A stretch of DNA of 38,520 nucleotides from Bacteroidaceae bacterium (GTDB lineage: Bacteria; Bacteroidota; Bacteroidia; Bacteroidales; Bacteroidaceae), in contig JAGCDE010000023.1 of NCBI GenBank assembly GCA_017651315.1, positions 1-38,520 of the forward strand. Direction: 5' to 3'. This document shows positions 10,537-30,686 of the stretch, in pieces. The notes under the pieces are model-generated. The model worked only from the letters and a program-made list of their open reading frames with translations, ran no database searches and had not been told where the DNA came from. How positions within the stretch are numbered: the first letter of the stretch is position 1; each line of letters begins with the position of its first letter. The position numbers were made by a program, and so were the translations under genes.

Positions 10537-10980
10537 TTATGAGATTGTGATGCTCTGGACGGCCTGGGCTTGCTTTTCGGCAGGCATCTTGGGCACGTTT
10601 ATGGTCAGCACGCCATTCTCGACTTTTGCTGAAATCTTGTCACGATCGGCATCCTCAGGCAGGATGTAGCTCTGGTTGAACTCCTGGTAAGAGAACTCAC
10701 GACGGATGTAGTTGCGTTTCTTGTCATCCTTGTTCTCCTCATGGTTGCGGACCATGGAGATTGACATAACGCCGTCGGCATCGACCTGCAGGTTCAGTTC
10801 CTCTTTCTTCAGACCCGGAACAGCGAACTCAAGTTCGTAGTCCTTCTCGTTCTCGATGACGTTCAGTGCCGGTACGCTGGCAGCGGTGCGGGTGGTGAAC
10901 CAATCATCATTCATAAAATCGTTGAACAGACTCGGTAACCAATTCTGGTTGTAGTTCTGATTTCTTCTTGCGAGTAACAT
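10537..10980 (-). CDS. Small heat shock protein, Hsp20/alpha-crystallin
   Basis: The 147-aa protein has a short N-terminal arm (NWLPSLFNDFMNDDWF) and an alpha-crystallin domain from about residue 37 to 135, containing YELEFAVPGLKKEELNLQVDADG and the GVLTINVPK strand that is diagnostic of the family. It would be an ATP-independent holdase chaperone forming oligomers in the cytoplasm. The gene stands alone, converging on the xylanase. It has an unusually strong Shine-Dalgarno sequence (10989-10994) and a repeated motif farther upstream (11085-11132), suggesting tight stress regulation. Confidence 0.95.
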   Translation of the reverse strand: MLLARRNQNYNQNWLPSLFNDFMNDDWFTTRTAASVPALNVIENEKDYELEFAVPGLKKEELNLQVDADGVMSISMVRNHEENKDDKKRNYIRREFSYQEFNQSYILPEDADRDKISAKVENGVLTINVPKMPAEKQAQAVQSITIS

Positions 10981-15416: not shown

Positions 15417-15436
15417 TTTTGTCTGTAAACGGACTG

Positions 15437-15444
15437 CAAAATTA
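15437..15444 (-). promoter_or_regulatory. Candidate -7 box for uvrA
   Basis: Minus-strand TAATTTTG fits TAnnTTTG, 20 bases before the GTG start, implying a leader of about a dozen bases. No SOS-type operator was recognised nearby, and the rest of the 123-base gap to the porin gene shows no other structure. Confidence 0.5.
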
Positions 15445-15539
15445 CCAAAAAATAAAAGTCGGCGGATTGGTTCGTCAGTTTATTCCTTTGACGGCGGCGG
15501 AAAGTTGACTGAGAGCTTTATGGAGGATAGCTCTGATCG

Positions 15540-16598
15540 TCAGAATTTGACTGTAACCATTGCGGAAAGCAAATCGCCTTTATTGTCAAACTGTTCGCGG
15601 TCATTCAGAGTATAGTTCAGTTGGAGACGCAGATGGCTTTCCGGCCACCAGTCAATTCCTACCATACAGAGGTTTGAGGTCAGGTTATTCTGATTGTATT
15701 GGTCATACCTCACTACGGGACGCAGTTTCTGGTCATTGCCAAACTTGAACCAGTATGAAGCCGCCACGTAAAAACCGTCGGCCTTGTGCCAGATTCCGCC
15801 GTTCTCAAAATCTGCGCGTACATACTCGGAGCGTAGGGTAAGAGCGTCATCCTTGTACTCGCCTCCGAATGCAATGCGGTTGTTGGCGGCTTTCCTGTCG
15901 GCCCCGTCGTTATAGGTGCCCTGGACAGCCGATGCAGACAGTACCAGCTCCTTGATGAACGGATGGAAGTCCAGACGGCCTATAACATCTTTGCCCTGGT
16001 TGTCATCTTTGCCGTTTATTCCGTTTCCGTTGAATACACCTATATTATAACTGAGTAATGGGAATGAACCATCATTGCTGTCAAGCAGGTTACCGAATAG
16101 CATCACACCTGAATCGCGCCCGTTTTTGCGGTTTCCTCCCAGAATGTCACTGAATCCTGCAAGGCTGCTTATTACTGCTGAATTGTCAATTCCCTCCTGG
16201 TTTAACGGCGAATACTGGTTTTCAAGCGTGAATGGAGTTTTGAACTGTCCCAGCTCGACATTGATAAGCTTGCTGAACTTGTATTTTATGAAGGCGTCAA
16301 CCAATTTGGGCGTACCGGCCATATCGGTCTGAAGGCGGAACTCCAGATTCCCGTTTATATTACCTTTTACATCCAGACGTGCGCGACGGGTGCTGAATGT
16401 GGAGACCTCGGTATGAGAACCGTCATTATTCTTCTGGTTCTCGTATGTGTATTGGTTGTCAATCCATCCGCCTACCGACAGATAAGCCGGAATCCTTGAT
16501 TTGTTCTCCTGTGCTGTGGCTGCCGCTGCCAGACTTAGCATCACTGCTGATACCAGAACTATCCTTTTCAATCCTTTGGTGTTTGTCTTTCTGTTCAT
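15540..16598 (-). CDS. Phosphate-selective porin O/P family protein
   Basis: The 352-aa protein has a signal peptide ([22 protein letters not shown]) and a beta-barrel sequence of alternating polar and hydrophobic strands ending in aromatic/hydrophobic MVTVKF, as required for BAM insertion. Hallmarks of the OprO/OprP-like family are the early [23 protein letters not shown] strand, [21 protein letters not shown], and [12 protein letters not shown] near the end. It is an outer-membrane channel, likely for anions. The real substrate is not readable from sequence. It faces away from the Rrf2/Pst-like/cys operon but lies next to it, so co-function in oxyanion uptake is plausible. It has a near-ideal promoter at 16642-16673. 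Confidence 0.88.
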
Positions 16599-16641
16599 AT
16601 TGTTAGTGTTTTGTAATTATTGATGTTCTTTCTTCAGGCTG

Positions 16642-16673
16642 CAAAGTTAGAACTGCGTGCAGTAAAATGCAAA
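16642..16673 (-). promoter_or_regulatory. Promoter of the porin gene
   Basis: On the minus strand TTTG (16673-16670), 20-base spacer, TAACTTTG (16649-16642): an almost ideal Bacteroidota vegetative promoter, 44 bases before the ATG at 16598. Confidence 0.78.
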
Positions 16674-16807
16674 TGGAAATGAAATATGGGAATATATATA
16701 TGCTTCATTGCGCCTTTGGCGAAAAAATAATCTTGAAGCTCCCTTGTATTCACTCCCAAAAGAATATTTTTCCTAACTTTACGGAGCAAAAACATGACTC
16801 GGACAAT

Positions 16808-17218
16808 ATGTTTTCACGTAAGACCCGATATGCTATAATGGCTCTCTCCATACTGGCCAGGGAGTATGGTCAGGCGGCTGTTCCCATGAGCCGTATTGCG
16901 GATGAGCAGAATGTGCCTATCCGTTTTCTGGAGGGCATTTTCCTTCAGCTGCGAAACGAGGGTATGCTGGTCAGTGAACGTGGGGTCAGCGGCGGGTACC
17001 GTCTGGCCTATCCGCCGCAGGAGATCAAGGTGCTTGACGTAATTCTGGCCATGGGCGAGAAAGTCGGCATGATATCCTGTCTGGATATATACGGTAATTC
17101 GTTTGAATGTGAATTCGGTCTGGACTGTGACAAGTGCCGCATAAGGGAAATGTTCGGCGATATCCATAAAAGCATTTACGACAATCTTTCTTCCCGGACT
17201 TTAGCAGATTTTATCTGA
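16808..17218 (+). CDS. Rrf2 family transcriptional regulator
   Basis: I start at 16808, giving 136 aa beginning MFSRKTRYAIMALSILA, the standard Rrf2 N-terminus; the open frame extends 47 codons upstream but without family sequence. The winged helix includes VPMSRIADEQNVPIRFLEGIFLQLRNEGML and the wing SERGVSGGYRLA. Four cysteines (C91, C101, C107, C110) lie where Rrf2 proteins such as IscR bind an Fe-S cluster, though the spacing differs from IscR. Other Rrf2 members (CymR) control cysteine metabolism. The gene lies 61 bases before the Pst-like/cysDNH operon on the same strand, so a role sensing sulfur or Fe-S status for that operon is a reasonable inference. Confidence 0.9.
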   Translation: MFSRKTRYAIMALSILAREYGQAAVPMSRIADEQNVPIRFLEGIFLQLRNEGMLVSERGVSGGYRLAYPPQEIKVLDVILAMGEKVGMISCLDIYGNSFECEFGLDCDKCRIREMFGDIHKSIYDNLSSRTLADFI

Positions 17219-17223
17219 TTTGC

Positions 17224-17254
17224 TTTGATAGTACATTGAAATGGTGTAGTTTTG
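17224..17254 (+). promoter_or_regulatory. Promoter of the Pst-like/cysDNH operon
   Basis: TTTG (17224-17227), 19-base spacer, TAGTTTTG (17247-17254): near-perfect Bacteroidota promoter, 25 bases before the ATG at 17280. It places the transporter and cys genes under a promoter separate from, or additional to, that of the Rrf2 gene. No clear operator palindrome is visible. Confidence 0.78.
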
Positions 17255-17279
17255 CGCCGGAAAATACTACATCAATTTT

Positions 17280-19220
17280 ATGTACTTTAATCGTCGCAAT
17301 CAAAAAGCTCTAACAATCCTTCTGGTTTCATTGCTTTCTTTTTCATCATGTCAGCACGATGAAAAGGACAAACTCAGGACAGATGATCTGCAGGGAAGCA
17401 TATCCATCTCCGGAGCGTTCGCATTGTATCCTATGGCTGTGGAGTGGACCAACGAGTTCTCTTCATTACATCCTGCGGTGCGCATAGACCTGTCATCGGG
17501 CGGCGCCGGCAAGGGTATGACGGATGTGCTTAACGGGATGGTCGATTTTGCAATGCTGTCGCGTGAGCCGCATGATGAGGAGCGTGAGAAAGGCGCTGTC
17601 GATTTCACGGTTGCAAAGGATGCGGTGCTTCCTGTATTCAGCTCATCCAATCCCTTGCGTGACAAGATCCTGGCCCACGGTATTACTGCCGATGACGCCC
17701 GCAAGATATGGATTACCGGCGAATACACAACCTGGGGACAGCTGCTTGGCACATCCGATAATAATCCGATTCATGTCTATACCCGGTCCGATGCATGTGG
17801 TGCGGCCCAGACGTTTGCTGCCTGGTTTGATGCCGTCCAGGAAGACTTGGGCGGTACTGCAGTTTACGGTGACCCCGGAATATCCAAGGCGGTGATAGAC
17901 GATCCCCTTGGAATAGGTTTCAATAACATGGCATACGCCTATGACTCCGAGACCCTGAACATGCAGGAAGGTCTTTCCGTGCTGCCATTGGACATTGACG
18001 GGAACAAAAGCGTAAGTGATGAGGAGAAGCTTTATGAGACCCGTTCCACCATTGCCGCTGCGATAGAGGAGGGCAGGTTCCCGGCTCCGCCTTCACGCAA
18101 CCTCTATCTGGTTACGAAAGGTGTTCCTGCCGATACCGCATCGCTTGAATTCCTCAAGTTCGTGATTTCAGAAGGACAGGAGTTCAACGAGCCCAACGGT
18201 TACGTGCGCATATCGAACGCATCGGCCCGTGAGTCAATGCGAAAGCTGAACGGCGGGCGCAGGGGCGGAGGCCTGAGGCGTGACAACACCCGCCTGATGA
18301 CACTTCTGGCCGGTATTGTGGTGGTGCTCCTGTTCCTTACTGCCGGAGTGCAGTTCATCCTTCCTTCACGCACTAAGCGCAGGATATACCGTCAGAGGCT
18401 CTCCGAGACAATGATGGTGATTCTGTCATTCTCATCGGTAGCGCTGCTTATAGCTTTGCTGGCCGCATTGTGGGGGAAGGCGGCACCCATGTTTGACAAA
18501 AGCACTTTGGGCGAACTGCTTACCGGTACCCAGTGGAAGCCGTCGCAGGGGCTGTTCGGATTCAGACCGTTTATACACGGTACGCTGGCTGTTACGTTGC
18601 TGAGCATCTGTTTCTCGCTCCCGCTGTCGCTTCTTACAGCGGTGTTCATTACCGAGTATGCTCCGCGTTTCCTCAAGCATATAGTTAATCCGGCTCTGGA
18701 TATTCTGGCATCGCTGCCATCGGTAATCTTTGGCCTTTGGGGTGTGCTTACCCTTATACCCAAGTTCGGCTATTCGCTGCTTACGGCATCGCTGGTACTC
18801 GGGGTTATGGTGCTGCCCATCATGGTAAGCCTGTTCTGTGAGATATTCGCTACCGTTCCTGACGATATGCGGGAATCATCATTCGCACTGGGTGCCACAC
18901 GCTGGCAGACCACACGCAAGGTGGTGCTGCGCAGATCTCTGCCCGGCATATTCGCGGCTGTGGTGCTGGCGCTTTCCAAATGTATTGGCGAGACCATTGC
19001 TGTCATGATGGTGTGCGGGTGCCTGCCGCGTCTGCGTGGTTCGTTACTGGATCCGTTCTATACACTGCCTGCCCTGATAGGAAACAACTACGGTGAGATG
19101 GCATCCATCCCGCTGTACGAGTCGGCCATAATGTTTGCCGCCTTGCTGCTGCTCCTGCTGGTGCTGCTGTTCAATATATTGTCACGTGTAATCCTTTACA
19201 GAATAGAGAAAAACAGCTGA
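17280..19220 (+). CDS. Fused substrate-binding lipoprotein/permease (PstS-PstC-like)
   Basis: One 646-aa chain. Residues 1-24 form a lipoprotein-like signal (LLVSLLSFSSC, lipobox cysteine). Residues about 38-320 are a PstS-like binding domain: SISISGAFALYPMAVEW, then DLSSGGAGKGMTDVLNGMVDFAMLSREP, the anion-loop region of the family. A membrane segment at about 338-358 leads to a PstC-like permease with five or six further helices and the ATPase-coupling loop ESSFALGATRWQTTRKVVL. Both parts look complete. In standard Pst systems these are separate genes. The ligand could be phosphate, but the direct linkage to cysDNH points to sulfate or another oxyanion. The next gene starts 2 bases after the stop. 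Confidence 0.87.
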   Translation: MYFNRRNQKALTILLVSLLSFSSCQHDEKDKLRTDDLQGSISISGAFALYPMAVEWTNEFSSLHPAVRIDLSSGGAGKGMTDVLNGMVDFAMLSREPHDEEREKGAVDFTVAKDAVLPVFSSSNPLRDKILAHGITADDARKIWITGEYTTWGQLLGTSDNNPIHVYTRSDACGAAQTFAAWFDAVQEDLGGTAVYGDPGISKAVIDDPLGIGFNNMAYAYDSETLNMQEGLSVLPLDIDGNKSVSDEEKLYETRSTIAAAIEEGRFPAPPSRNLYLVTKGVPADTASLEFLKFVISEGQEFNEPNGYVRISNASARESMRKLNGGRRGGGLRRDNTRLMTLLAGIVVVLLFLTAGVQFILPSRTKRRIYRQRLSETMMVILSFSSVALLIALLAALWGKAAPMFDKSTLGELLTGTQWKPSQGLFGFRPFIHGTLAVTLLSICFSLPLSLLTAVFITEYAPRFLKHIVNPALDILASLPSVIFGLWGVLTLIPKFGYSLLTASLVLGVMVLPIMVSLFCEIFATVPDDMRESSFALGATRWQTTRKVVLRRSLPGIFAAVVLALSKCIGETIAVMMVCGCLPRLRGSLLDPFYTLPALIGNNYGEMASIPLYESAIMFAALLLLLLVLLFNILSRVILYRIEKNS

Positions 19221-19221
19221 T

Positions 19222-20073
19222 ATGAGTCATATTCGTACTAAACAGATAGAGGAGAAAGTGATGCGGGGCGTGATGCTGGTGGCCACTCTCATTGTTCTCG
19301 GAGCGGTTGTAAGCATACTCGGCACCATACTGATAAGGGGCAGCAAGGCGCTGTCGTGGGAAATGGTTTCCAGGTTCCCGGGTAAGGAGTGGAACACTGC
19401 TCCTGACGGCGGATTCCTTAATGCCATACTGGGCTCGCTCTATGTGGTGGGCCCGGCAGCCGTGATAGGCGCATGCATCAGCATCCCCGTGGTGTTCTAT
19501 ATAACTATGTACAAGCGCAGGAGCACGGGCGTATCGTATATCATACGTCTGGCGTTCGACGTGCTTTACGGAATACCCCCTATAGTATATGGAGCGTTCG
19601 CATTCCTTGTTATGGTCGGTGTGGGCATGAGAGCATCGGTCCTGGGCGGTATCATGGTTACGGTACTGCTTATTGTACCCATGATGATACGCTCCGGCGA
19701 TGAGATTGCCAAGACCGTGCCCGATGAGATGGTCGATGCCGTCTATTCACTCGGTGCTACCAAATGGGAGACCGTGTGGGTTGTGCTCAAGCATATACTG
19801 CCGGGAATGCTTACCGCTTTCCTGCTGGCTGTAGGCAGGGCCATAGGCGATGCCGCCGCAGTGATGTTCACCGCCGGTTTCTCCGATCAGCCGGCACATT
19901 CGCTGTCAGATCCTACAGCCACGCTGCCGCTGGCCGTTTTCAACTGGATAGGGATGCCCGATCCGTTCCCGGGGCGCGCATACGCCGCCGCATTGGTGCT
20001 GACTATACTGGTGCTGGTGCTGAGCATAGTAAGCAGAGTCATTACACGCAGAATTACCCGTCTTAACAAATAA
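19222..20073 (+). CDS. PstA-like ABC transporter permease
   Basis: The 283-aa inner-membrane protein has six hydrophobic segments and the BPD_transp_1 coupling motif DAVYSLGATKWETVWVVLKHILPGM. The first segment is MLVATLIVLGAVVSILGTILIRGSKALSWEMV, as in PstA. DGGFLNAILGSLYVVGPAAVIG and GGIMVTVLLIVPMMIRSGDEIAKTVPDEM are typical of the family. It would pair with the permease half of the preceding fused protein. It lies between that gene and the ATPase, with gaps of 1 and 5 bases. Substrate is open, as for the fusion protein. Confidence 0.9.
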   Translation: MSHIRTKQIEEKVMRGVMLVATLIVLGAVVSILGTILIRGSKALSWEMVSRFPGKEWNTAPDGGFLNAILGSLYVVGPAAVIGACISIPVVFYITMYKRRSTGVSYIIRLAFDVLYGIPPIVYGAFAFLVMVGVGMRASVLGGIMVTVLLIVPMMIRSGDEIAKTVPDEMVDAVYSLGATKWETVWVVLKHILPGMLTAFLLAVGRAIGDAAAVMFTAGFSDQPAHSLSDPTATLPLAVFNWIGMPDPFPGRAYAAALVLTILVLVLSIVSRVITRRITRLNK

Positions 20074-20078
20074 ACACT

Positions 20079-20852
20079 ATGACTGAAAACAAATCCGAAT
20101 CGCTGGTGGTTGACAGGCTCAATGTATCCATAGAGGGCCAGCCCATTCTGAAGGACATAAACGTATCATTTCCGGTCAACAGGATAACCTGCATAGTAGG
20201 TCCGTCCGGCTGCGGCAAGAGTACGCTGTTGCGCTGCCTTAACCGTCTTACCGAGAACATTGACGGGTTTAGCATTGACGGGCATGTGTTCATAGACGGT
20301 CAGGATATTGTGACCGCCGATGACGAGCACCTGATTGAGCTGCGCCGTCATGTGGGTCTGGTGCCCCAGCGTCCATGTCCGCTGCCCATGTCCATCTATG
20401 ACAACGTGGCTTACGGATGCCGTATCCATGGGATGCACAGGCGTAAGCAGGAAATGGATGAGACCGTAGAGAGGTATCTGAGTGAGGTGGGACTCTGGGA
20501 TGAGGTCAAAGACCGTCTGCGCCGTCCTGCGGCACGCTTGTCAATAGGGCAGCAGCAGCGTCTGTGTCTGGCCCGCAGCCTTGCGGTGGAGCCCGATTTC
20601 ATCCTGGCCGACGAGGCTACCAGCGCCCTTGACCCCATATCGAGCAAGACCATTGAGGAGCTGTTTGTAAGGCTCAAGGAGAAATATACCATCATTATGG
20701 TTACCCATACGCTGCCGCAGGCACTGCGCATCGCCGACTATGCCGTGTTCCTCTATCTGGGCGAGATTGTTGAGGAGGGACCTGCATCGCAGGTGTTCAA
20801 ATCACCCCAGAACGATCTTACCAAGAGATATCTTTCAGGATTATTCAGTTGA
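20079..20852 (+). CDS. PstB-like ABC transporter ATPase
   Basis: The 257-aa ATPase has Walker A GPSGCGKST (about 42-50), LNRLTENIDGFSIDGHVFIDGQDI typical of PstB, Q-loop LVPQRPCPLPMSIYDNVAYG, signature LSIGQQQRLCLARSLA near 154 (Ile replaces the usual Gly), Walker B FILADEATSALDP near 174 and switch histidine in MVTHTLPQA. It powers the transporter encoded by the two preceding genes. The family match is PstB, not CysA. cysD starts 12 bases after its stop, which makes co-transcription very likely. Confidence 0.92.
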   Translation: MTENKSESLVVDRLNVSIEGQPILKDINVSFPVNRITCIVGPSGCGKSTLLRCLNRLTENIDGFSIDGHVFIDGQDIVTADDEHLIELRRHVGLVPQRPCPLPMSIYDNVAYGCRIHGMHRRKQEMDETVERYLSEVGLWDEVKDRLRRPAARLSIGQQQRLCLARSLAVEPDFILADEATSALDPISSKTIEELFVRLKEKYTIIMVTHTLPQALRIADYAVFLYLGEIVEEGPASQVFKSPQNDLTKRYLSGLFS

Positions 20853-20864
20853 ATCAAAAAAAAT

Positions 20865-21773
20865 ATGAGTTTAAATCAGCTTACTCATTTAAACGAACTG
20901 GAGGCGGAGTCCGTTTTCATACTGAGAGAGGTGGCCGCACAGTTTGAAAAACCGTGCATACTCTTTTCGGGAGGCAAGGACTCGATAGTGCTCACATATC
21001 TGGCCTACAAGGCATTCTATCCGGCCAAAATACCGTTTCCTCTTGTACACATTGACACCGGACACAATTTCCCCGAGACACTGGTCTATCGTGATGAACT
21101 GGTGAAACGTCTGGGGGCCGACCTGGTGGTGGGCTCTGTCCAGAAATCAATCGATGAGGGCAAGGTTGTAGAGGAGAAGGGATTCAATGCCAGCCGCAAC
21201 AAACTGCAGACCGTAACGCTGCTCGACACCTTGGCCGGGCACAAGTTTGACTGTGCCTGCGGAGGTGCCCGCCGTGATGAGGAGAAGGCACGCGCCAAGG
21301 AGCGTATATTCTCGCACCGCGACGAGTTCGGGCAGTGGAACCCCAAGAACCAGCGTCCGGAACTTTGGAACATATTCAATGCCAAGAAAGATCCGGGAGA
21401 GCATTTCAGGGTATTCCCCATAAGCAACTGGACCGAGATGGACGTATGGCAGTACATATATCAGGAGAAGATTGAACTGCCCAGCCTCTACTATACGCAC
21501 ATGCGCAAATGTTTCTACAGGGACGGACAGTGGCTTGCCGCCGATCCCGATTTCATACCGCGTCGCCCCGAAGAGGTAGTCGAGGAGCGCGAGGTTCGCT
21601 GCCGTACCATAGGCGATGTCACCTGCACCGGACTCACTCTCTCACATGCCCATTCGCTTGAGGAGATTATCGATGAGATAGCATCGACCCGCGTTACCGA
21701 ACGTGGCGGCCGTGCCGATGACAAGCGCTCGGAGACGGCGATGGAGGACAGAAAGAAACAGGGTTATTTTTAA
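20865..21773 (+). CDS. cysD: Sulfate adenylyltransferase subunit 2
   Basis: The 302-aa protein is a full-length CysD of the PAPS reductase/ATP pyrophosphatase fold. It shows the PP-loop SGGKDSIVLTYLAYKAFYP near residue 35, HIDTGHNFPETLVYRD, CACGGARRDEEKARAKERIFS and the C-terminal region with CRTIGDVTCTGLTLSHAHSLEEI. With CysN it activates sulfate with ATP to adenosine 5'-phosphosulfate. Its stop codon (21771-21773) runs into a 46-base inverted repeat that separates it from cysN. Confidence 0.97.
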   Translation: MSLNQLTHLNELEAESVFILREVAAQFEKPCILFSGGKDSIVLTYLAYKAFYPAKIPFPLVHIDTGHNFPETLVYRDELVKRLGADLVVGSVQKSIDEGKVVEEKGFNASRNKLQTVTLLDTLAGHKFDCACGGARRDEEKARAKERIFSHRDEFGQWNPKNQRPELWNIFNAKKDPGEHFRVFPISNWTEMDVWQYIYQEKIELPSLYYTHMRKCFYRDGQWLAADPDFIPRRPEEVVEEREVRCRTIGDVTCTGLTLSHAHSLEEIIDEIASTRVTERGGRADDKRSETAMEDRKKQGYF

Positions 21774-21818
21774 GAATCTGTTTTGGCTTGTTTCCCGGAA
21801 CAAGTCAAAACAGATTCT
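21773..21818. repeat. Palindromic repeat element, copy 3 (minimal, 46 bp)
   Basis: Left arm AGAATCTGTTTTGGCTTG and right arm CAAGTCAAAACAGATTCT form a hairpin with one mismatch and a short loop. These are the terminal arms of the ~165-bp element found at 6033, 8196 and 24982, with all internal sequence missing. The first base is the last base of the cysD stop codon. Inside the operon it would form a stable RNA hairpin without a T-tract, so it may protect or process mRNA or reduce cysN expression rather than end transcription. Confidence 0.9.
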
Positions 21819-21833
21819 AAAGCTAAAAGGTTT

Positions 21834-23114
21834 ATGCAGAACAATGGATATCTAGAGATGAAACTGCTGCGGTTCACTACCGCCGGCAGTGTGGATGACG
21901 GAAAGAGTACGCTCATAGGCCGTCTGCTGTATGATTCGAAGTCAATTTTTGAGGACCAGTTAGAGGCTGTCGAGGAGGCTTCGCGCAGCCGCGGCAACGA
22001 GGAGGTGAACCTTGCGCTGCTTACCGACGGCCTGCGTGCCGAGCGTGAGCAGGGCATAACCATAGATGTGGCGTACCGTTACTTTGCCACCCCCAAGCGC
22101 AAGTTCATAATTGCCGATACTCCGGGACACATACAATATACCCGCAACATGGTTACGGGTGCATCGACTGCCGACCTGGCTGTGATTCTGGTGGATGCAC
22201 GCCACGGGATAATGGAGCAGACCGTAAGGCACTCCTGCATCGCATCGCTGCTACGCATTCCCAAGGTAGTAGTGGCCGTGAACAAGATGGATCTGGTGGA
22301 TTTTGACAGCAAGGTGTTTGACGACATCAGTGCTGCATACACTGCCATGATAAACAAGAACGGACTGGAGTTCAAGGATGTGATATTCATCCCCATGTGT
22401 GCCAAGGACGGCGACAATGTGGTGTCCCGATCGGAGCTTATGCCGTGGTATTCAGGCCCGTCATTACTGGAGCATCTGGAGCAGGTCGAGATACCCGGCG
22501 GCGATGCCGACAGCATGCGTTTCCCGGTACAGTATGTGATAAGGCCCATATCAAGGCAGTTCCCCGATTTCCGTGGGTACGGCGGCCGCATTGCTCAGGG
22601 AATCATCCGTGTGGGTGACAGCATTGAGGTGCTGCCGTCTGGCTCCAAGAGCACCGTTACAGGCATCTGGTTAGGCGAGAAGCAGAAGGAGCAGGCTGTT
22701 GCGGGCGAATCGGTCTGCATCACCATTAAGGATGACATCGATATAAGCCGCGGTGACGTGATTGCATCGGACAGTGGTGTAAAGCCCTCCATGAGCAATG
22801 ATTTTGTGCTGGATGTCTGCTGGCTGCGTACCTCTCCGCTGGTATGCGGCAAGCGTTACACCATTCGTCACGCTACTCAGGAGGTTGCCGGAATAGTTAA
22901 GGAGATTGAGTACAAACTGGATATTGACAAGCAGGAGAAAGTCTATGACATTGAGCAACTTACTGCCAATGATATAGCACGCGTACACCTTAAGACCGCC
23001 GCTCCGCTTGTTTTTGATGCGTACCGTGACAACCGCACTATGGGTTCGCTTATCTTTATTGACGGAACAAATGACACCGTGGGTGCCGGAATGATAGTTG
23101 AGAGCTATGACTAA
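21834..23114 (+). CDS. cysN: Sulfate adenylyltransferase subunit 1 (GTPase)
   Basis: I start at 21834 (MQNNGYLEMKLLRFTTAGSV), 426 aa; an in-frame ATG at 21783 lies inside the repeat hairpin and is unlikely. GTPase motifs are complete: G1 GSVDDGKST, effector-region GITIDVAYRYF, G3 DTPGH with IQYTRNMVTGAS, G4 NKMDLV. Translation-factor-like domains follow (QFPDFRGYGGRIAQGIIRVGDSIEVLPSG). Length corresponds to CysN alone, without a fused APS kinase (CysC) domain. It couples GTP hydrolysis to APS formation with CysD. Its end overlaps the cysH start by 8 bases. Confidence 0.96.
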   Translation: MQNNGYLEMKLLRFTTAGSVDDGKSTLIGRLLYDSKSIFEDQLEAVEEASRSRGNEEVNLALLTDGLRAEREQGITIDVAYRYFATPKRKFIIADTPGHIQYTRNMVTGASTADLAVILVDARHGIMEQTVRHSCIASLLRIPKVVVAVNKMDLVDFDSKVFDDISAAYTAMINKNGLEFKDVIFIPMCAKDGDNVVSRSELMPWYSGPSLLEHLEQVEIPGGDADSMRFPVQYVIRPISRQFPDFRGYGGRIAQGIIRVGDSIEVLPSGSKSTVTGIWLGEKQKEQAVAGESVCITIKDDIDISRGDVIASDSGVKPSMSNDFVLDVCWLRTSPLVCGKRYTIRHATQEVAGIVKEIEYKLDIDKQEKVYDIEQLTANDIARVHLKTAAPLVFDAYRDNRTMGSLIFIDGTNDTVGAGMIVESYD

Positions 23115-23844
23115 GGAACAGAAGATTGCACTTGTGGCAGAGAAGAATGCCGAGTGGGCAGGCCTTAACGCCTTGGAGAGCGCCCAGGCTGCTGTGAAAT
23201 GGGCGGTAGGGACATTCGGCCTCCGCGCCGCACTCTCCACCAGCCTCAGTTATGAGGACCAGGCTGTGACCGATATGATTGCCCGCCAAGGCAAGGACAG
23301 CGCACGTATATTCACTCTTGATACCGGCCGTATGTTCCCCCAGGTATATGACCTGATTGACCGTACAAACCTCAAGTACGGCATTCGCATTGAGGTGTTC
23401 TTCCCGGATTACGCCAAGGTGCAGGAGATGGTCCGCGAGCATGGAATCAACCTGTTCTATGACAGCGTTGAACTGCGCCATCTGTGCTGCGACATACGTA
23501 AGATAGAACCGCTCAAGCGTGCCCTCAAGGGTGTTGACGTGTGGATTACGGGACTCCGCCGGTCGCAGTCGGTTACCCGCACCGACATGCAGATAATAGA
23601 ATACGACACCGCCGATGACGTGATCAAGCTCAATCCGCTCATGCTGTGGAGTGAGTCCGATGTCATTGATTACGTCAAGTCCAACAGCGTACCTTACAAC
23701 AGGATGCACGAGCAGGGCTACCCCAGCATAGGGTGTCAGCCCTGCACCCGTGCCATCACCCCCGGCGAGGATATCCGCGCCGGCCGCTGGTGGTGGGAGA
23801 ATCCCGACAAACGAGAGTGCGGCCTCCACAGCCGCAAACATTAA
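23107..23844 (+). CDS. cysH: Adenylyl-sulfate (APS) reductase, CysH type
   Basis: I choose the ATG at 23107 (MTKEQKIALVAEKNAEW), which overlaps cysN by 8 bases; this gives 245 aa. The PAPS/APS reductase fold is shown by LSTSLSYEDQAVTDMIAR, FTLDTGRMFPQVYDLIDRT and ITGLRRSQSVTRTD. It holds C127-C128 and C210-x-x-C213, the four ligands of the [4Fe-4S] cluster found in APS reductases and missing from PAPS-specific enzymes. The ECGLHS signature with the catalytic cysteine is at the C-terminus. It reduces APS to sulfite using thioredoxin-type donors. Absence of cysC in the operon agrees with direct use of APS. It converges on msrA. Confidence 0.94.
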   Translation: MTKEQKIALVAEKNAEWAGLNALESAQAAVKWAVGTFGLRAALSTSLSYEDQAVTDMIARQGKDSARIFTLDTGRMFPQVYDLIDRTNLKYGIRIEVFFPDYAKVQEMVREHGINLFYDSVELRHLCCDIRKIEPLKRALKGVDVWITGLRRSQSVTRTDMQIIEYDTADDVIKLNPLMLWSESDVIDYVKSNSVPYNRMHEQGYPSIGCQPCTRAITPGEDIRAGRWWWENPDKRECGLHSRKH

Positions 23845-23879
23845 GGGAGTTACCGGAGGTAATCAACGCTGATTTAAGG

Positions 23880-24398
23880 TCAGTTGGATTCGGCAGCAAG
23901 GCGGAAAAGCGCAGGAGTCAGGTGACAATAGCCCGTGGGGTTCTTGTCCAGATAGTCCTGGTGGTACTCCTCGGCACGGTAGAAGTTCTTTAGGGGTAGC
24001 AGCTCCACTGTCAGTTTCTGGTCTGGCTCAAGAGCCTGCTGCTGCTCACTGAACACTTCCTGTAAGAGTTCAACAGTAGAGGAATCCGTATCAGGAGTGT
24101 AATAAACACCTGTGCGATAGCGGGTCCCCTCATCCTCGCCCTGCTTGTTGAGGCTGGTGGGGTCTATGGCCTTGAAATAGATTCGGGTCAGCTTATCGAC
24201 GGGGATCACCTTGGGGTCGTATGTCACGTGAACGCACTCGGCATAGCCGGTGGTATCGGTATAGACCTCCTTGTAGGTGGGATTGGGGGTGTTCCCGTTG
24301 GCAAACCCTACCTCGGTGCCGATAACTCCGTTTATAAGCTTGAGGTATTTTTCGGCTCCCCAAAAACAGCCTGCCGCGAAATAAATCTCCTTATACAT
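23880..24398 (-). CDS. msrA: Peptide-methionine (S)-S-oxide reductase
   Basis: The 172-aa protein begins MYKEIYFAAGCFWGAEKYL with the MsrA catalytic motif GCFWG (nucleophile C11). NPTYKEVYTDTTGYAECVHVTYDP and RTGVYY are further family signatures. It repairs methionine sulfoxide in proteins. No MsrB domain is fused. There is no signal peptide, so it acts in the cytoplasm. It begins 5 bases after the stop of the PNPOx-fold gene, which makes a two-gene oxidative-stress-flavoured operon. Confidence 0.96.
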   Translation of the reverse strand: MYKEIYFAAGCFWGAEKYLKLINGVIGTEVGFANGNTPNPTYKEVYTDTTGYAECVHVTYDPKVIPVDKLTRIYFKAIDPTSLNKQGEDEGTRYRTGVYYTPDTDSSTVELLQEVFSEQQQALEPDQKLTVELLPLKNFYRAEEYHQDYLDKNPTGYCHLTPALFRLAAESN

Positions 24399-24403
24399 TT
24401 GCG

Positions 24404-24901
24404 TCAGAACGTGAAAGTCTCGGGGTCCGATGTGAACGATGATATGGTGGCGGTGGCGTTCTGAAGGTAGAGAACTATGGTGTTGTCATCGTTCTCGTCG
24501 TACATGGAACGCAGCGACTGGTTCTTGTCAAGCATGTCCTTCTTGGCTGCCACACGCTCATCGGGGATGAGTTCGCATTCGATGCGGATCCACTGGCCGT
24601 CCTTATAGGCGCAGATTTCGGCCTTGGGATTGGCCTTGAGCTGCTTATAGACGTTCTTGGACTTGCCGGTCTGGATGTAGAGGCGGCCTTCAAATATCTC
24701 GGCTGTTCCGAACGGACGGACGTGGGGCTGGTCGCCGTCAACTGTTGCCAGATAATAGGTCTGGGCATCCTTGAGGAACTGCTGTGCACGCAGGGCATTC
24801 TGCGGGTTGGGTGTGATTGTTGTACTCATAGTGTTGTTTTGTCTGTTTCCGCATGCAGTAAGCATTATGGAAGTTAGGGCAATGATAAACAGTTTTTTCA
24901 T
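24404..24901 (-). CDS. PNPOx-fold (FMN-binding) protein with lipoprotein signal
   Basis: The 165-aa protein opens with MKKLFIIALTSIMLTACGN, a lipoprotein signal (lipobox LTAC, cysteine 17). After a linker comes a pyridoxamine 5'-phosphate oxidase-like split barrel: FLKDAQTYYLATVDGDQPHVRPFGTAEIFEGRLYIQTGKSKNVYKQLKANPKAEICAY. Relatives are usually cytoplasmic flavin- or heme-binding proteins without a signal. An internal ATG at residue 25 (MSTTITPNPQ) would give such a cytoplasmic form, so two products are possible. The reaction is unknown. It is upstream of msrA in the same operon. Confidence 0.85.
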   Translation of the reverse strand: MKKLFIIALTSIMLTACGNRQNNTMSTTITPNPQNALRAQQFLKDAQTYYLATVDGDQPHVRPFGTAEIFEGRLYIQTGKSKNVYKQLKANPKAEICAYKDGQWIRIECELIPDERVAAKKDMLDKNQSLRSMYDENDDNTIVLYLQNATATISSFTSDPETFTF

Positions 24902-24929
24902 CTGTAGAACTCATATTGTTTGGTATTTG

Positions 24930-24937
24930 CAAAAGTA
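24930..24937 (-). promoter_or_regulatory. Candidate -7 box for the PNPOx-msrA operon
   Basis: Minus-strand TACTTTTG fits TAnnTTTG, 29 bases before the ATG at 24901. No clear -33 element is seen. Confidence 0.5.
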
Positions 24938-24981
24938 GTCCATTTTCACGTAATTCTTATTGTTTTTGTAGCAGGTGTTTT

Positions 24982-25146
24982 AGAATCTGTTTAAATTTGT
25001 CTCCATAAATTTCCTATAGTCTCTTTTACCCTCTGCTTTCATCGTTCCTCAGTCAAAATGGACTTCCATAATTCTCTCGGAAACGATAAAACCAGAGGAT
25101 AAAATAGCCTATAATCATCTTCATGGAATAAATTCAGACAGATTCT
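24982..25146. repeat. Palindromic repeat element, copy 4 (165 bp)
   Basis: Ends AGAATCTGTTTAAATTTG and the inverse-like AATAAATTCAGACAGATTCT. The arms pair imperfectly over nearly the full length (about 80 bases each) around a TGGACTTCCA centre. Layout and length match copy 1, but the sequence has drifted more. It ends 35 bases before the ATG of the GH115-GH29 gene, and I see no good promoter between them. Confidence 0.88.
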
Positions 25147-25181
25147 TAATGTGCAATAAAACGTTAAATAATATTCAGATT

Positions 25182-28100
25182 ATGAAGTTAAGATTAGCCT
25201 GCGTATTTCTGTTATTCTGTGGGACTGTAAGTGCCCAGCTGTCATCAAAAGCCTGGACACCAGGTGAATACATCAGTTTCGACAAGGCCGGCAAGAGTGA
25301 TTTCCCGTTGGCACAGGATGGCAGAAGCGCTTCCATCATCGTATCGGAAAATGAATGGAAGGGCGTAAAGCGTGCCGCCGCCGACCTTGCCAAGGATATG
25401 GAGCGGGTAACGGGGACGGCATCGGAAGTGATTACCGCCGGAAAACCATCCAAGGGAAGCGTCATTGCCGGAACCATTGGCTCAAGCGAGGTCATAGACA
25501 GACTGGTCAGGAAAGGCAGGCTTGATGTTAAAGGAATAGAAGGTGAGCGGGAATCGTTCGTGATTGAGGTCATTGACGGAAGTCTGGTCATAGCCGGAAG
25601 CGACAGGCGGGGCACCATATACGGAATATATGACGTGTCGGAGAATATAGGAGTGTCGCCCTGGTACTGGTGGGCCGATGTTCCCGCCGCACAGCATGAT
25701 GTGCTTACCGTCAAGAGCGGACGCTATGTCCAGCCATCGCCCAAGGTACGTTACCGCGGTATTTTCATCAACGACGAGAGTCCCTCGTTCAGCGGATGGA
25801 GTGACGCCAAGTTCAAGGAGGGTGGTACCCGGAACGGCCAGAACAGCGTGATGTACGCCCACATGTTCGAACTGATACTAAGGCTCAAGGCCAACTATCT
25901 GTGGCCGGCCATGTGGGGCAAGGCTTTCAACGAGGACGATCCCCGCAGTCCCGGAGTGGCCGATGAGTACGGAGTGATTATGGGAACATCGCACCATGAG
26001 CCCATGATGCGCGCCCAGCAGGAATATACCGTCCGCCAGAGAGAGGTGGGAATATGGGACTATGTGACCAATGCTGACAACCTTAAGAAATTCTGGCGTG
26101 AAGGTCTGGAACGCAACAGCAAGTACGAGAACCTTATTACGATAGGTATGCGCGGCGACGGTGACGTGCCTATGGGTCAGGGCAATGACGAACAGAACAC
26201 CCAGGTGCTCTATGACGTGATCCGCGACCAGCGCAGCATAATAAGCGAGGTATATGGAAAAGATGCAAGCGAGGTCCCGCAGATGTGGGCCCTGTTCACT
26301 GAGGTACAGAGATACTATGAATCAGGGATGACCAGCCCGGATGACGTGCTGCTGATGTTCTGCGACAACAACTGGGGATACATACGTCGCACAGGCCCTG
26401 AAAAGGAACTGAACCGCAAGGGCGGCCTGGGAATGTACTACCATATAGACATGAACGGCGGACCGTGGAACGACCGTTGGATTAACACCACAACCATCCC
26501 CAAACTGCGCGAACAGCTGAGTCTGGCATACCGTACAGGAATCGATGACCTGTGGATAATCAATGTGGGTGACCTCAAACCCAAGGAACTGCCCATCGAC
26601 TTCATAATGCACTACGCATGGGATCCCGATGCCATAGGACCCGATGATACATTTGACTATGCTCTCTCATGGGCAGAGCAGAATTTCGGAAAGGAGCAGG
26701 CTCGAGAGATTGCCTGGATAGTATCGCAATACCCCAAGCTCAATCTGATGCGCAAGCCCGAAGTTCAGAGTACCGGCATCTTCAGCTACGAGAACTACGA
26801 TGAGCTGAACCGTCAGATGCGCCTATGGGACGAGGTGGAGAAACGGGCCGAAGCACTCAAACCGCAGATTCCGGAGCGTTACCGGGATGCATTCTTCGAG
26901 CTGGTCTATTATCCGGCAGTGGCATCGGCAGGTGTGGGTAAGATATGGCTTATGGCCCAGCAGAACAACATCTATGCGCTTCAGGGCAATCCTGCCGCCA
27001 ACAATATGGCTGACTATCATATCAAACGGCTGTTTGACAGGGACAAGGAGCTGTCGGACTATTACAACAACACTCTGGCAGGCGGAAAATGGAAGAACAT
27101 GATGTCCGACAAGCATATAGGTTATGTCCAGTGGTCCATGCCCAATGAGGACCGTCTGCCCACTCTCTATCACGTCAAGGCTCAGAAAACCGCTTCGCTC
27201 GCTGTGGAGGTTGAGGGTAGCGAACTGGCCTGGCCAATCATCGAACCCGAGACTGAAGCTGTTGAGGGTACCGGACTACGCAGGGAGATGAGGCGTTCCA
27301 TAAGGGATCTCTCGGCCGAGGCACATCTGCCGGTATTTGATGCAATGGGAAACCGGAAATACGCTATCCGTCTCTTTAACCGCGGAACCGGAACAGCCTC
27401 TTATACCGTAACCTCCGATAAGGACTGGGTCCTGTTTGACGGGCATACAGAGGGAGGTGTATCGGAAATGACAGGTATTGAAATAAAGGTACATATTGAC
27501 TGGAGTAAGGCACCCATGGGGCGTTCTGAGGCACTGATAACCGTACGGCAGAAGGACTCGGACACTGAAATACCCATCAGGGTGGAGGCGGTGAACGGAG
27601 AACTGCCGTCAGCGGCAAGACCGTATTTCGGGACAATGGCAGGTGAATATGGTGTGGATGTACTCAAGCCAGCCGCCAATGTCCCGGGCAAGGATGCAGC
27701 CTGGAGACTGCTGCCTGACCTGGGTCGTGGAGCAGGCTGTATGGGTGTATGGCCCAACAATGCTCCGTCGGCATCGCTTCAGGCCATCAAGTCGGCCCCG
27801 CATCTGGATTATGACATTTATCTGCATGAGACCGGCAGCCAGACCGTATGCATAGGAATCCTCCCCACTCAGGATGTGAATCCGTCCAGAGGACTGCGTC
27901 TGGCAGTATCGGTCGATAACGGTGAGCCTATGGTGATTGACGCCCGTCAGGGACTCCACGATGAGTTCAGCGAATACACCCAGCAGAATCTGGCCCGGTC
28001 CAAGGTCCTCAAGCCACTGCCTCAGGCACACAACTATCCGCTGCGCAACGGAAACCGCCAGATGCGCGATGAGGTGTTTGACAACCTGCGCTGGCTGGAT

Positions 28101-30137
28101 ACACAGATAACTATTGACAATCCGGGAATCCATACCCTTAAAATCTGGATGGTGGATCCGGAGATTGTGCTGGAAAAGATTGTGATAAATCCCGACGGCC
28201 GTATGAGTTACAGCGGTCCGGTACCCGTAATCCACGACAACACTCTCTGGAACCTGCCGGAATTCAAGCCCGAGGATGGGCCTTATACATCCGGTTGGGA
28301 GACTCTGAGCCGTTACTACAATGTTCCTGAGTGGTGGCGGGAGGCCAAGTTCGGTGCATGGTCGCACTGGGACCCGCAGTCTCAGGCCGAGGATGGCGAC
28401 TGGTACTCCAGAGGCATGTATCAGGAGGGCAGCGAGCAGTACCGCTATCACCTGGAGCATTACGGACACCCGTCGGTTTACGGCTACAAGGAGCTGTGCC
28501 GCGACTGGAACATCGATGCATGGGACCCCGATGACCTGATGCAGCTCTACAAGGATATGGGTGCCAGGTATTTCGTGGCTATGGGTAACCATCATGACAA
28601 CTATGACTGCTGGGACAGCAAATATCAGCCCTGGAACTCGGTCAATGTGGGCCCTGAGAAGGATGTGGTGGGAATCTGGGCAGAGACCGCACGCAAGTAC
28701 GATATGCCATTCGGAATAGGGTTTCACGCCACTCCGGCACGTACTTACGGTCAGTTCATGACCGTTCGCTACCGCAGTGACCGTAACGGCCCCAATGCCG
28801 GAATCCCATACGACGCCAACCTTACTGCCGCCGACGGCATAGGCAAGTGGTGGGAAGGGCTGGACCCCGTTGACCTTTACGGTCCGGTTCACAGGAACGG
28901 CCGAAACTCTTTGGAGACACCTTTCGCCACCCAGTTCATGTACCGTGTGGATGATGCCATACGCAAGTATCAGCCCGATATGATCTATTTTGATGACCAT
29001 GCTGGCGACTCGCAGGTGGATCTGGGTATTAACATGGGACTGGGTAAGCTCACTCCACAGATAATTGAGAATTTTTACAACATCGCCTCCAAGCGCGATG
29101 ATGGCAGGACGCAGGTGGTGGCCACATTCAAGGGCGTGGGTGGACGTTATGACAGTTTCCAGAATTCGCCCCAGCTGCTTCCGCTTGTGGACCGCAGCCT
29201 GCTCAAGAGCACAGAGTTCTTTACCGAGGACCAGATAATGGCATACCCTTTCCAGACCGAGGTAAGCCTTCAGGAATGGCATTACAGGAAAGGTGTTCCA
29301 TACCGTCCCGCACATGAGATCATCACCCGGCTTATGCAGAATGTGTCCCGAAACGGGTCGCTGCTGCTCAATATCACCCAGCGTGCAGGCGGAAATATCG
29401 ACCCGGAGGCCCGACAGATATGTCAGGATATAGGCCGTTGGCTCAAGATCAACGCAGATGCCGTCTATGGTGCCCGCCCTTTTGAGACATGGGGCAATGA
29501 CAATGTAATCTATACCCGGAACGGAGGTTTTGTATATGCCATGCTTTACAGTTGGGACGGAAGTGAGGTGAATCTGGATGCTCTTTCAACCAATTCGGCC
29601 ACCATAGGGAAGGTGAGCAAGGTGGAACTGATAGGGCAACCCAAGGCGCGCATCATTTTCAGACAGACCGATGCTGGACTTTCCCTATCGGCCGGAACAC
29701 AGCTTCAACCGTATGAGGAAATCAGTGATGAACGTCTCGCCAACGGATTCAAAGTCCTGCGTATAACACATGATAAGGCGCTTTTCAACGATGATGATCC
29801 CGGAGTGACGACCATAGGATGGGAACACCGGTGCAATCTGGGTCAAGGCGATTACAACAATGACCTATATGTATCCTCAAATGCGGGTGATGTGTGGCGT
29901 ACCACATTCTATGGCAAAAGCATAGAGCTGATAGCTCCTGTAGGACCGGATATGGGCGATATGACAGTGAGTGTTGACGGCGATGCTCATACAGTACCGC
30001 TCAGGGATTCAGAAAGCCATAAGGCCCAACAGGTGGTTTTCAGGTACAAAGCAAAAAAAAGAGGCAGCCATACTGTTGAGATTAGTAATAATTCAGGTAC
30101 AGTTGCCATTGATGCGCTTGCTGTGAAAAGAAGATGA
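25182..30137 (+). CDS. GH115 alpha-glucuronidase fused to GH29 alpha-L-fucosidase-like domain
   Basis: The ATG at 25182 gives 1651 aa with signal peptide MKLRLACVFLLFCGTVSAQ; an in-frame ATG 11 codons earlier lacks signal character. GH115 part: ESFVIEV...LVIAGSDRRGTIYGIYDVSENIGVSPWYWWADVP (about 100-167), YRGIFINDESPSFSGW, LWPAMWGKAFNEDDP (about 241), and a GH115 C-terminal domain at about 820-1005. GH29 part, about 1015-1430: WWREAKFGAWSHWDPQSQ, YFVAMGNHHDNYDCWDSKYQPWNS, and PDMIYFDDH with predicted nucleophile D1271, then NGSLLLNI. A beta-rich, CBM-like module closes it (about 1545-1651). Known GH115 enzymes remove (methyl)glucuronic acid from xylan and GH29 enzymes remove alpha-L-fucose. 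Both halves look complete and in one frame. GH29 substrate and acid/base residue are not determined here. Confidence 0.93.
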   Translation: MKLRLACVFLLFCGTVSAQLSSKAWTPGEYISFDKAGKSDFPLAQDGRSASIIVSENEWKGVKRAAADLAKDMERVTGTASEVITAGKPSKGSVIAGTIGSSEVIDRLVRKGRLDVKGIEGERESFVIEVIDGSLVIAGSDRRGTIYGIYDVSENIGVSPWYWWADVPAAQHDVLTVKSGRYVQPSPKVRYRGIFINDESPSFSGWSDAKFKEGGTRNGQNSVMYAHMFELILRLKANYLWPAMWGKAFNEDDPRSPGVADEYGVIMGTSHHEPMMRAQQEYTVRQREVGIWDYVTNADNLKKFWREGLERNSKYENLITIGMRGDGDVPMGQGNDEQNTQVLYDVIRDQRSIISEVYGKDASEVPQMWALFTEVQRYYESGMTSPDDVLLMFCDNNWGYIRRTGPEKELNRKGGLGMYYHIDMNGGPWNDRWINTTTIPKLREQLSLAYRTGIDDLWIINVGDLKPKELPIDFIMHYAWDPDAIGPDDTFDYALSWAEQNFGKEQAREIAWIVSQYPKLNLMRKPEVQSTGIFSYENYDELNRQMRLWDEVEKRAEALKPQIPERYRDAFFELVYYPAVASAGVGKIWLMAQQNNIYALQGNPAANNMADYHIKRLFDRDKELSDYYNNTLAGGKWKNMMSDKHIGYVQWSMPNEDRLPTLYHVKAQKTASLAVEVEGSELAWPIIEPETEAVEGTGLRREMRRSIRDLSAEAHLPVFDAMGNRKYAIRLFNRGTGTASYTVTSDKDWVLFDGHTEGGVSEMTGIEIKVHIDWSKAPMGRSEALITVRQKDSDTEIPIRVEAVNGELPSAARPYFGTMAGEYGVDVLKPAANVPGKDAAWRLLPDLGRGAGCMGVWPNNAPSASLQAIKSAPHLDYDIYLHETGSQTVCIGILPTQDVNPSRGLRLAVSVDNGEPMVIDARQGLHDEFSEYTQQNLARSKVLKPLPQAHNYPLRNGNRQMRDEVFDNLRWLDTQITIDNPGIHTLKIWMVDPEIVLEKIVINPDGRMSYSGPVPVIHDNTLWNLPEFKPEDGPYTSGWETLSRYYNVPEWWREAKFGAWSHWDPQSQAEDGDWYSRGMYQEGSEQYRYHLEHYGHPSVYGYKELCRDWNIDAWDPDDLMQLYKDMGARYFVAMGNHHDNYDCWDSKYQPWNSVNVGPEKDVVGIWAETARKYDMPFGIGFHATPARTYGQFMTVRYRSDRNGPNAGIPYDANLTAADGIGKWWEGLDPVDLYGPVHRNGRNSLETPFATQFMYRVDDAIRKYQPDMIYFDDHAGDSQVDLGINMGLGKLTPQIIENFYNIASKRDDGRTQVVATFKGVGGRYDSFQNSPQLLPLVDRSLLKSTEFFTEDQIMAYPFQTEVSLQEWHYRKGVPYRPAHEIITRLMQNVSRNGSLLLNITQRAGGNIDPEARQICQDIGRWLKINADAVYGARPFETWGNDNVIYTRNGGFVYAMLYSWDGSEVNLDALSTNSATIGKVSKVELIGQPKARIIFRQTDAGLSLSAGTQLQPYEEISDERLANGFKVLRITHDKALFNDDDPGVTTIGWEHRCNLGQGDYNNDLYVSSNAGDVWRTTFYGKSIELIAPVGPDMGDMTVSVDGDAHTVPLRDSESHKAQQVVFRYKAKKRGSHTVEISNNSGTVAIDALAVKRR

Positions 30138-30168
30138 ATCGGATTTTCCTTTGCTCATCCCGAATCTG

Positions 30169-30660
30169 TTACAGGATTTCCCGTGCTATCCAGGCGCAGG
30201 CCTCGGCATCGGCCAGTGCGTGGTGATGATTCTCCAGCAGATAACCGCAAGCGGCGGCAACAGTCTGCAGCTGATGGTTTCCGAGTGACGGTAATCTGCG
30301 GCGTGAGCAGCAAAGGGTGTCATAGAACACATAGTCAGGATAATCCATCTGATATGTGCGGAACACGGCCTTCAGACAACCTTCATCAAAAGGGCTGTTA
30401 TGCGCCACAAGCGGCAGTCCCTGAATCATAGGCTCTATCTTTGCCCAGACATCGGGAAACACAGGCGCATCATCCGTGTCGCGACTGCATAACCCATGCA
30501 CCCGCTGGCACCAATAGTTGTAGTAATCAGGCTCCGGCTTTATGAGCGAGTAGAACGAGTCCACAATCTCACCACCGCGCACAATGACAACCCCCACTGA
30601 GCAAACCGAGCTCCGCTCGCTGTTGGCCGTCTCAAAGTCAATCGCTGCAAAATCCTTCAT
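30169..30660 (-). CDS. DnaQ-like DEDDh 3'-5' exonuclease
   Basis: The 163-aa protein starts MKDFAAIDFETANSERSSVCSVGVV, with the ExoI D-x-E motif in IDFET. VAHNSPFDEGCLKAVF holds the second motif and HHALADAEACAWIA the third, with the catalytic His and Asp of the DEDDh class. It resembles stand-alone exonucleases of the DNA polymerase III epsilon/RNase T superfamily. The exact substrate (DNA or RNA) is unknown. The ATG at 30660 is preferred to a TTG at 30681 because that TTG lies in the -7 box. It converges on the GH115-GH29 gene. Confidence 0.9.
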   Translation of the reverse strand: MKDFAAIDFETANSERSSVCSVGVVIVRGGEIVDSFYSLIKPEPDYYNYWCQRVHGLCSRDTDDAPVFPDVWAKIEPMIQGLPLVAHNSPFDEGCLKAVFRTYQMDYPDYVFYDTLCCSRRRLPSLGNHQLQTVAAACGYLLENHHHALADAEACAWIAREIL

Positions 30661-30678
30661 CCCTGAATTAATTAGAGA

Positions 30679-30686
30679 CAAAGATA
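30679..30686 (-). promoter_or_regulatory. Candidate -7 box for the exonuclease gene
   Basis: Minus-strand TATCTTTG fits TAnnTTTG exactly, 18 bases before the ATG at 30660. No convincing TTG lies 19-21 bases farther upstream. Confidence 0.55.

Follow-up and report, generated by a model that had tools for sequence, protein, structure and literature searches.

The stretch of Bacteroidaceae DNA analyzed here (contig JAGCDE010000023.1 of assembly GCA_017651315.1, positions 1 to 38,520, i.e., 38,520 nucleotides; hereafter, the window) carries a gene that encodes a GH115 domain followed by a GH29 domain (Table 1). Pfam searches with the 1,651-residue product returned GH115, GH115_C, and GH29, each far over its cut-off, and NCBIfam yielded nothing useful for either half. 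These matches and the uninterrupted frame confirm that a complete GH115 and a complete GH29 lie in one chain, as an earlier reading of the DNA (the sequence-only reading) had proposed; the C-terminal half was assigned to GH29 and to no other family, and no stop or frameshift separates the halves. That reading had also called the protein secreted and its end CBM-like. By inspection, the N-terminus has the look of a type I signal peptide and is nearly identical in the second copy of the gene described below; the protein is most likely periplasmic, which is probably what secretion would mean here. The CBM-like end was recovered by structural modeling and fold search.

Table 1 Features of the GH115-GH29 fusion gene (positions in the window)
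Feature	Residues	Position	Strand	Basis or remark
Whole GH115-GH29 fusion gene	1,651 aa	25182..30137	+	Single open frame; second copy in genome G147
Signal-peptide-like N-terminus (...LLFCGTVSA/Q)	1-18	25182..25235	+	Read from sequence
GH115 catalytic domain	186-527	25737..26762	+	Pfam PF15979, 461 bits (cut-off, 27); nearest solved chain, 4zmh
Equivalent of BoAgu115A Asp206 (proposed acid)	Asp198	25773..25775	+	By-eye alignment; role from PMC3879575
Equivalent of BoAgu115A Asp332 (candidate base)	Asp328	26163..26165	+	By-eye alignment; PMC3879575
YYHIDMNGGPWNDRW, GH115 subclade mark (many others: YHVDYVGAPRNSKW)	419-433	26436..26480	+	
GH115_C domain	833-1013	27678..28220	+	Pfam PF17829, 108.8 bits
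Fusion point	about 1020-1022	28239..28247	+	Unfused GH115 C-termini meet mature unfused GH29 N-termini (by eye)
GH29 barrel	1032-1425	28275..29456	+	
First C6-pocket position	Trp1060	28359..28361	+	Trp in 71/71
Second C6-pocket position (Tyr1269), Phe1270, nucleophile (Asp1271), Asp1272	1269-1272	28986..28997	+	Asp1272 position acidic in 71/71
Candidate acid/base	Glu1345	29214..29216	+	Glu in 71/71
CBM35/CBM6/CE2-N-like beta-sandwich	about 1530-1651	29769..30134	+	Model and fold search

The fusion is present in two genomes

Full-length matches to the fusion (residues 1 to 1651) were found in 2 of the 301 genomes of the family sample, namely, the window genome and G147, and the same two accounted for the matches among the 37 genomes of the genus, which puts a count on the rarity anticipated by the sequence-only reading. 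In the order (393 genomes) and phylum (395 genomes) samples, which overlap and were kept unmerged, the fusion was present in the window genome only (E 1e-180 or better). Because the whole-protein searches of the family, order, and phylum samples scored two candidates per genome, strongly diverged fusions were possibly missed.

The second copy, 93% identical to the first and carrying the same join, lies on record CAJOLR010000017.1 of an uncultured Bacteroidaceae bacterium (isolate Reindeer_1_mag_99). Both copies have the same neighbors, namely, a gene for a DnaQ-type exonuclease and others for a pyridoxamine-oxidase-like protein, a methionine sulfoxide reductase, and sulfate assimilation; some of the neighbors we take, from their Pfam domains, to be cysD, cysN, and pst. 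For this one pair of copies, the Nei-Gojobori dN/dS ratio was 0.065 over residues 1 to 1015 and 0.071 over residues 1016 to 1651, rising to 0.25 past residue 1440, where synonymous changes are few. Both halves are under purifying selection and were apparently retained once joined. The synonymous distance between the copies (window versus L041) was 0.64 for the GH115 half and 0.30 for the GH29 half, a twofold gap behind which gene conversion perhaps lies. We conclude that the fusion is a real, rare union of two known families, maintained by selection in two species; among the literature matches listed, no GH115-GH29 protein was found described.

Other long frames were considered and rejected as fusions of this kind. 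Very long frames in G229, G143, and G218 contain GH29 domains of another type, accompanied by DUF5013; the frame in G229:C3 (L203 1-6636), for instance, encodes 2,212 residues with such a GH29 at its N-terminus, DUF5013, and a remainder mostly without a Pfam match. The long GH115 frame of G387:C7 (L197 1222-5088; 1,289 residues) joins GH115 to an Asparaginase_2-type domain, and in that of G838 (1,232 residues) GH115 and GH115_C were the only domains found. Candidates in G379 (1598) and G090 (1422) proved to be separate genes, in the latter case 6 bp apart and with only 32% identity in the GH29.

The two halves are joined end to end

One long GH115 that is not fused (L007) terminates in ...NPDNRYPSYFGAPAMRHNSK, and the fusion reads ...NPDGRMSYSGPVPVIHDN followed by TLWNLPEFKPE at the junction. 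Within the genus, the closest GH29 that stands alone (L092; 84% identical) has a signal-like N-terminus of its own, after which its mature part begins with DIWNLPEFKPE. Because the full GH115 C-terminus abuts the start of the mature GH29, the halves are joined without a linker, contrary to the linker near residues 1005 to 1015 that had been suggested previously. The gene would have arisen when a full-length GH115 gene was joined to a GH29 gene without the signal-peptide portion. Since the C-terminal domain of one BoAgu115A protomer contributes to what is probably the xylan cleft of its partner (PMC3879575), a GH29 domain on the GH115 C-terminus might, by analogy, sit close to a glucuronidase cleft.

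Unfused GH29s of the same subfamily in other lineages (L042, L044, L128, and L121) carry an extra N-terminal stretch of ~155 residues, with weak Pfam hits at most. A BLAST extension hinted at a GH115_C-like domain on the N-terminus of the 783-residue unfused GH29s; Pfam gave weak matches to other domains there, and the hint was not used.

Both halves belong to subgroups without a solved member among those compared

A phmmer search aligned the first half with six distinct solved GH115 sequences (4zmh, 4c90, 7pug, 7pxq, 6nps, and 5by3), of which 4zmh scored highest (701 bits). In by-eye alignment with BoAgu115A, residues D206, R328, D332, E375, and H422 correspond to D198, R324, D328, E374, and H421 of the fusion, and W245, M248, W249, Y420, and D424 are also kept (as W241, M244, W245, Y419, and D423), whereas Val426 and Lys374 are replaced by Asn425 and Thr373 in the fusion. 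The GH115_C domain, which BoAgu115A requires for activity (PMC3879575), is present with its native C-terminus. Among 72 distinct GH115 frames, mostly gathered by similarity to the fusion protein, the motif reads YHIDMNGGP in 36 and YHVDYVGAP in 26, and the YVG form occurs in the four solved chains whose alignments were compared (4zmh, 4c90, 7pug, and 7pxq). Given the differing motif, the GH115 half falls in a subclade with no solved member among these chains. It is predicted to be an α-glucuronidase that releases glucuronic acid from xylan.

The C-terminal half matches the GH29 profile PF01120 at 239.8 bits (cut-off, 25.2) and adopts the GH29 fold in the model. Among solved proteins, BpGH29 is closest to it in sequence (173 bits, versus 137 for the fucosidase FgFCO1), as it is by profile (218 versus 158 bits). 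Asp1271 aligns with residue 264 of BpGH29, the Asp replaced in the D264N mutant, and is kept in all 71 sequences compared (the window and 70 of the 80 loci described below); Glu1345, the candidate acid/base, is likewise invariant, although this residue aligns poorly in GH29A (PMC10154630). At the first C6-pocket position, where the fusion has Trp1060, E1_10125 and BpGH29 have Phe and FgFCO1 has Tyr; at the second, Tyr1269 of the fusion faces Trp in E1_10125 and BpGH29. The GH29 half belongs to a subfamily with no solved member among those compared.

Relatives of the two halves occur together

Scanning a species-genome collection with the GH29 alignment gave 183 encoding stretches. The 80 best were retained and range from Bacteroidaceae of ruminants and horses to Verrucomicrobia, Planctomycetes, and Acidobacteria; bacteria closely related to that of the window live in herbivore guts. 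Neighbors were counted within 10 kb of the 68 loci at ≥45% identity and of the 12 more distant ones, with query enzymes taken partly from the same clusters, so that self matches are included, and with many contigs short. GH43 was present at 31/68 close versus 0/12 distant loci, GH31 at 16/68 versus 1/12, GH2 at 13/68 versus 1/12, GH97 at 12/68 versus 0/12, GH127 at 9/68 versus 1/12, GH115 at 8/68 versus 0/12, GH27 at 2/68 versus 0/12, and GH3 at 1/68 versus 4/12.

One of the eight loci with GH115 is the fusion itself (L091), and in two (L121 and L130) the GH115 has a different type of motif. Unfused members of both subclades share one locus in the window genome (G000:C3, L039), G032 (L042/L043), G177 (L044), G044 (L045 = L112), G316 (L085 = L106), G533 (L200), and L111, as well as in L104, where the GH115 is cut by the contig end, and G197 (L048 = L113), where it is broken; in G123 (L206), a partial GH29 lies 58 bp from a GH115, followed by GH43. 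The pair in the window genome (L039 12803-18336) consists of divergently oriented GH115 and GH29 genes with an AraC-type regulator between them. Around the unfused pairs lie GH43, GH97, GH31, GH27, GH3, GH127, and GH2.

At the genome level, 32 of the 301 family genomes passed E 1e-100 for the GH29 half; we counted as carriers the 13 above 1,000 bits and G123 (partial), the rest (337 to 365 bits) having another GH29 type. The GH115 subclade (E 1e-250) was carried by 43/301 genomes overall and by 9 of these 14 (Fisher P = 1.3e-5). The association persisted without the two fusion genomes (7/12; P = 2.6e-4) and without G123 and the doubtful G163 (8/13; P = 5.8e-5), all three values being uncorrected for kinship. 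Relatives of both halves are thereby shown to co-occur beyond expectation.

The fusion itself sits in a variable stretch (window 15416-30681) between a UvrA-like gene and DnaQ. In the six congeners whose DnaQ flank was read (L208-L213), other genes and no GH115-GH29 gene were found there; in L208-L211, a UvrA-like gene lies within a few genes of that flank.

Farther away, ~15 kb upstream of the fusion, the window encodes a GH10 xylanase (8621-10483) with a CBM_4_9 match at 158-259 that precedes the bulk of the GH10 match; the corresponding interval of the sister genome G147 (L202) holds other genes instead. At 10537-10980, the minus strand encodes a small heat-shock protein of the HSP20 type (85.8 bits).

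Proposed function and alternatives

We tentatively propose, at a probability of about 0.45, that the protein debranches complex heteroxylan with two catalytic heads, of which GH29 removes α-L-galactose. Most likely in the periplasm, it would act on a heteroxylan of grass or corn-bran type, its GH29 half removing terminal α-L-galactosyl residues from the same or a neighboring side chain with Asp1271 as the nucleophile, and its C-terminal β-sandwich may hold the substrate. We infer the compartment, the substrate, the L-galactose specificity, and any cooperation between the halves; the targets may be two neighboring decorations of one glycan, as the sequence-only reading proposed, a possibility suggested by co-localization.

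α-L-Galactose is present on corn-bran xylan (PMC5708106, PMC7176698). It is among the substituents that render corn-fiber xylan hard to digest, and the enzymes described for it in PMC4491172 and PMC7176698 are of family GH95; removal of terminal sugars is apparently needed before the next enzymes can act (PMC7176698). The Bacteroides ovatus corn-xylan locus combines GH115, GH43, GH31, and GH97 with a GH95 α-L-galactosidase (PMC4491172), and the unfused clusters described above resemble it in GH content. A simple reading by analogy is that GH29 would be the α-L-galactosidase of the unfused clusters and that the fusion would unite it with the α-glucuronidase. Among the literature matches listed, no GH29 enzyme releasing L-galactose from xylan was found described.

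Several observations weigh against α-L-galactose. By fold comparison, BpGH29 is tied with two Fusarium fucosidases, and in the published GH29 similarity network it shares a cluster with fucosidases (PMC11189522). The pocket is not of the BpGH29 type (Trp and Tyr rather than Phe and Trp), and FgFCO1, a fucosidase, likewise departs from Phe at the first position, so the Phe/Trp pair is no strict fucosidase mark. In addition, GH10 was found near none of the relatives (0/68 close and 0/12 distant loci). Because of the FgFCO1 pocket, the fold tie, and the absence of GH10, we keep the α-L-galactose reading modest; because the pocket residues differ, we claim no membership in the BpGH29 type, only a likely similarity of the sugar. 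Overall, the sequence-only reading is partly supported, and its aside on L-galactose, favored by the BpGH29 match and the corn-xylan-type clusters, is somewhat better supported than fucose.

The main rival, which we hold to be unlikely but well short of negligible, is that the GH29 half is an ordinary α-L-fucosidase acting on xyloglucan or another fucosylated plant glycan, the fusion simply bundling two plant-wall activities. Most of the GH29 family are fucosidases, the two Fusarium enzymes are the next nearest by sequence besides being tied by fold, some enzymes of network cluster 2, to which FgFCO1 and BpGH29 both belong, release fucose from xyloglucan (PMC11189522), and the GH31, GH2, and GH43 of several neighboring loci would also suit xyloglucan. 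However, the best sequence match is an α-L-galactosidase, the partners GH115, GH97, GH43, GH127, and GH27 fit heteroxylan better, and the pocket differs from that of E1_10125, albeit with the FgFCO1 caveat at the first position.

Less probable still is that GH29 removes a cap from glucuronic acid, such that the domains act in sequence on one disaccharide side chain. The GH115 subclade accompanying GH29s of the fusion type has the altered motif (N425 for Val426), and methylglucuronic acid capped by β-D-galactose or α-L-arabinopyranose is known in xylan (PMC5708106); these known caps are not α-L-galacto sugars, though, and the available text of PMC5708106 names no L-galactose or L-fucose on xylan glucuronic acid. 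The side chain would then be an undescribed one, from which GH29 lifts an α-L-galacto cap before the MNGG-motif GH115 removes the uronic acid, an improbable arrangement that, if real, would provide a second, GH29-based route for removing L-galactose from xylan besides GH95.

It is also improbable, and marginally more so, that the protein acts not on xylan but on a gum or a decorated arabinogalactan. Such glycans carry both uronic acid and fucose. The title of 5by3 presents BtGH115A as specific for decorated arabinogalactans, but among the six solved GH115s this enzyme has the lowest score (434 bits versus 990 for 4zmh), and the neighbors are xylan-type enzymes. Finally, although the window genome is a draft of 59 contigs, an assembly chimera or gene-calling artifact is rejected because the same join exists in a second metagenome-assembled genome, at 93% identity, with conserved neighbors and low dN/dS in both halves.

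If the α-L-galactose reading is correct, this GH29 subfamily would supply a second tool for L-galactose, and the fusion a natural template for joined debranching enzymes. As a "Rosetta stone," the fusion suggests one substrate for two uncharacterized subclades, and this link reduces the question of specificity to two simple assays.

Comparison with known systems

The five-domain GH115 α-glucuronidase of Saccharophagus degradans (4zmh), which matches residues 30 to 933 (701 bits in all), shares GH115 and GH115_C with the fusion. Unlike the fusion, it lacks GH29, contains BACON domains (none were found by Pfam in the fusion), and has YYHFDYVGGPRSYRW in place of YYHIDMNGGPWNDRW. BoAgu115A (BACOVA_03449; 4c90, 4c91), the GH115 of the corn-xylan locus, shares the mapped catalytic residues but has a single catalytic domain, and its V426 and K374 are replaced in the fusion.

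For the GH29 half, the exo-α-L-galactosidase BpGH29 (7ljj, 7lk7, 7lnp, 7snk) is nearest by sequence and among the nearest by fold; in contrast to the GH29 half, to which it is about 28% identical, it is unfused, acts on porphyran, and has the Phe/Trp C6 pocket. The Fusarium graminearum fucosidase FgFCO1 (4ni3) and its relative 9lxl match the fold equally well, but FgFCO1 scores lower than BpGH29 by sequence and carries Tyr as the first of the two pocket residues. BACOVA_03438, the GH95 α-L-galactosidase of B. ovatus PUL-XylL, would do the job proposed here for GH29, likewise from a GH115-bearing locus (PMC4491172), yet it is a separate, inverting protein of another family and fold. Bicatalytic xylan enzymes of Bacteroidetes, such as CE15-GH8 and fused acetyl-feruloyl esterases, similarly place two plant-wall activities on one chain, in other families.
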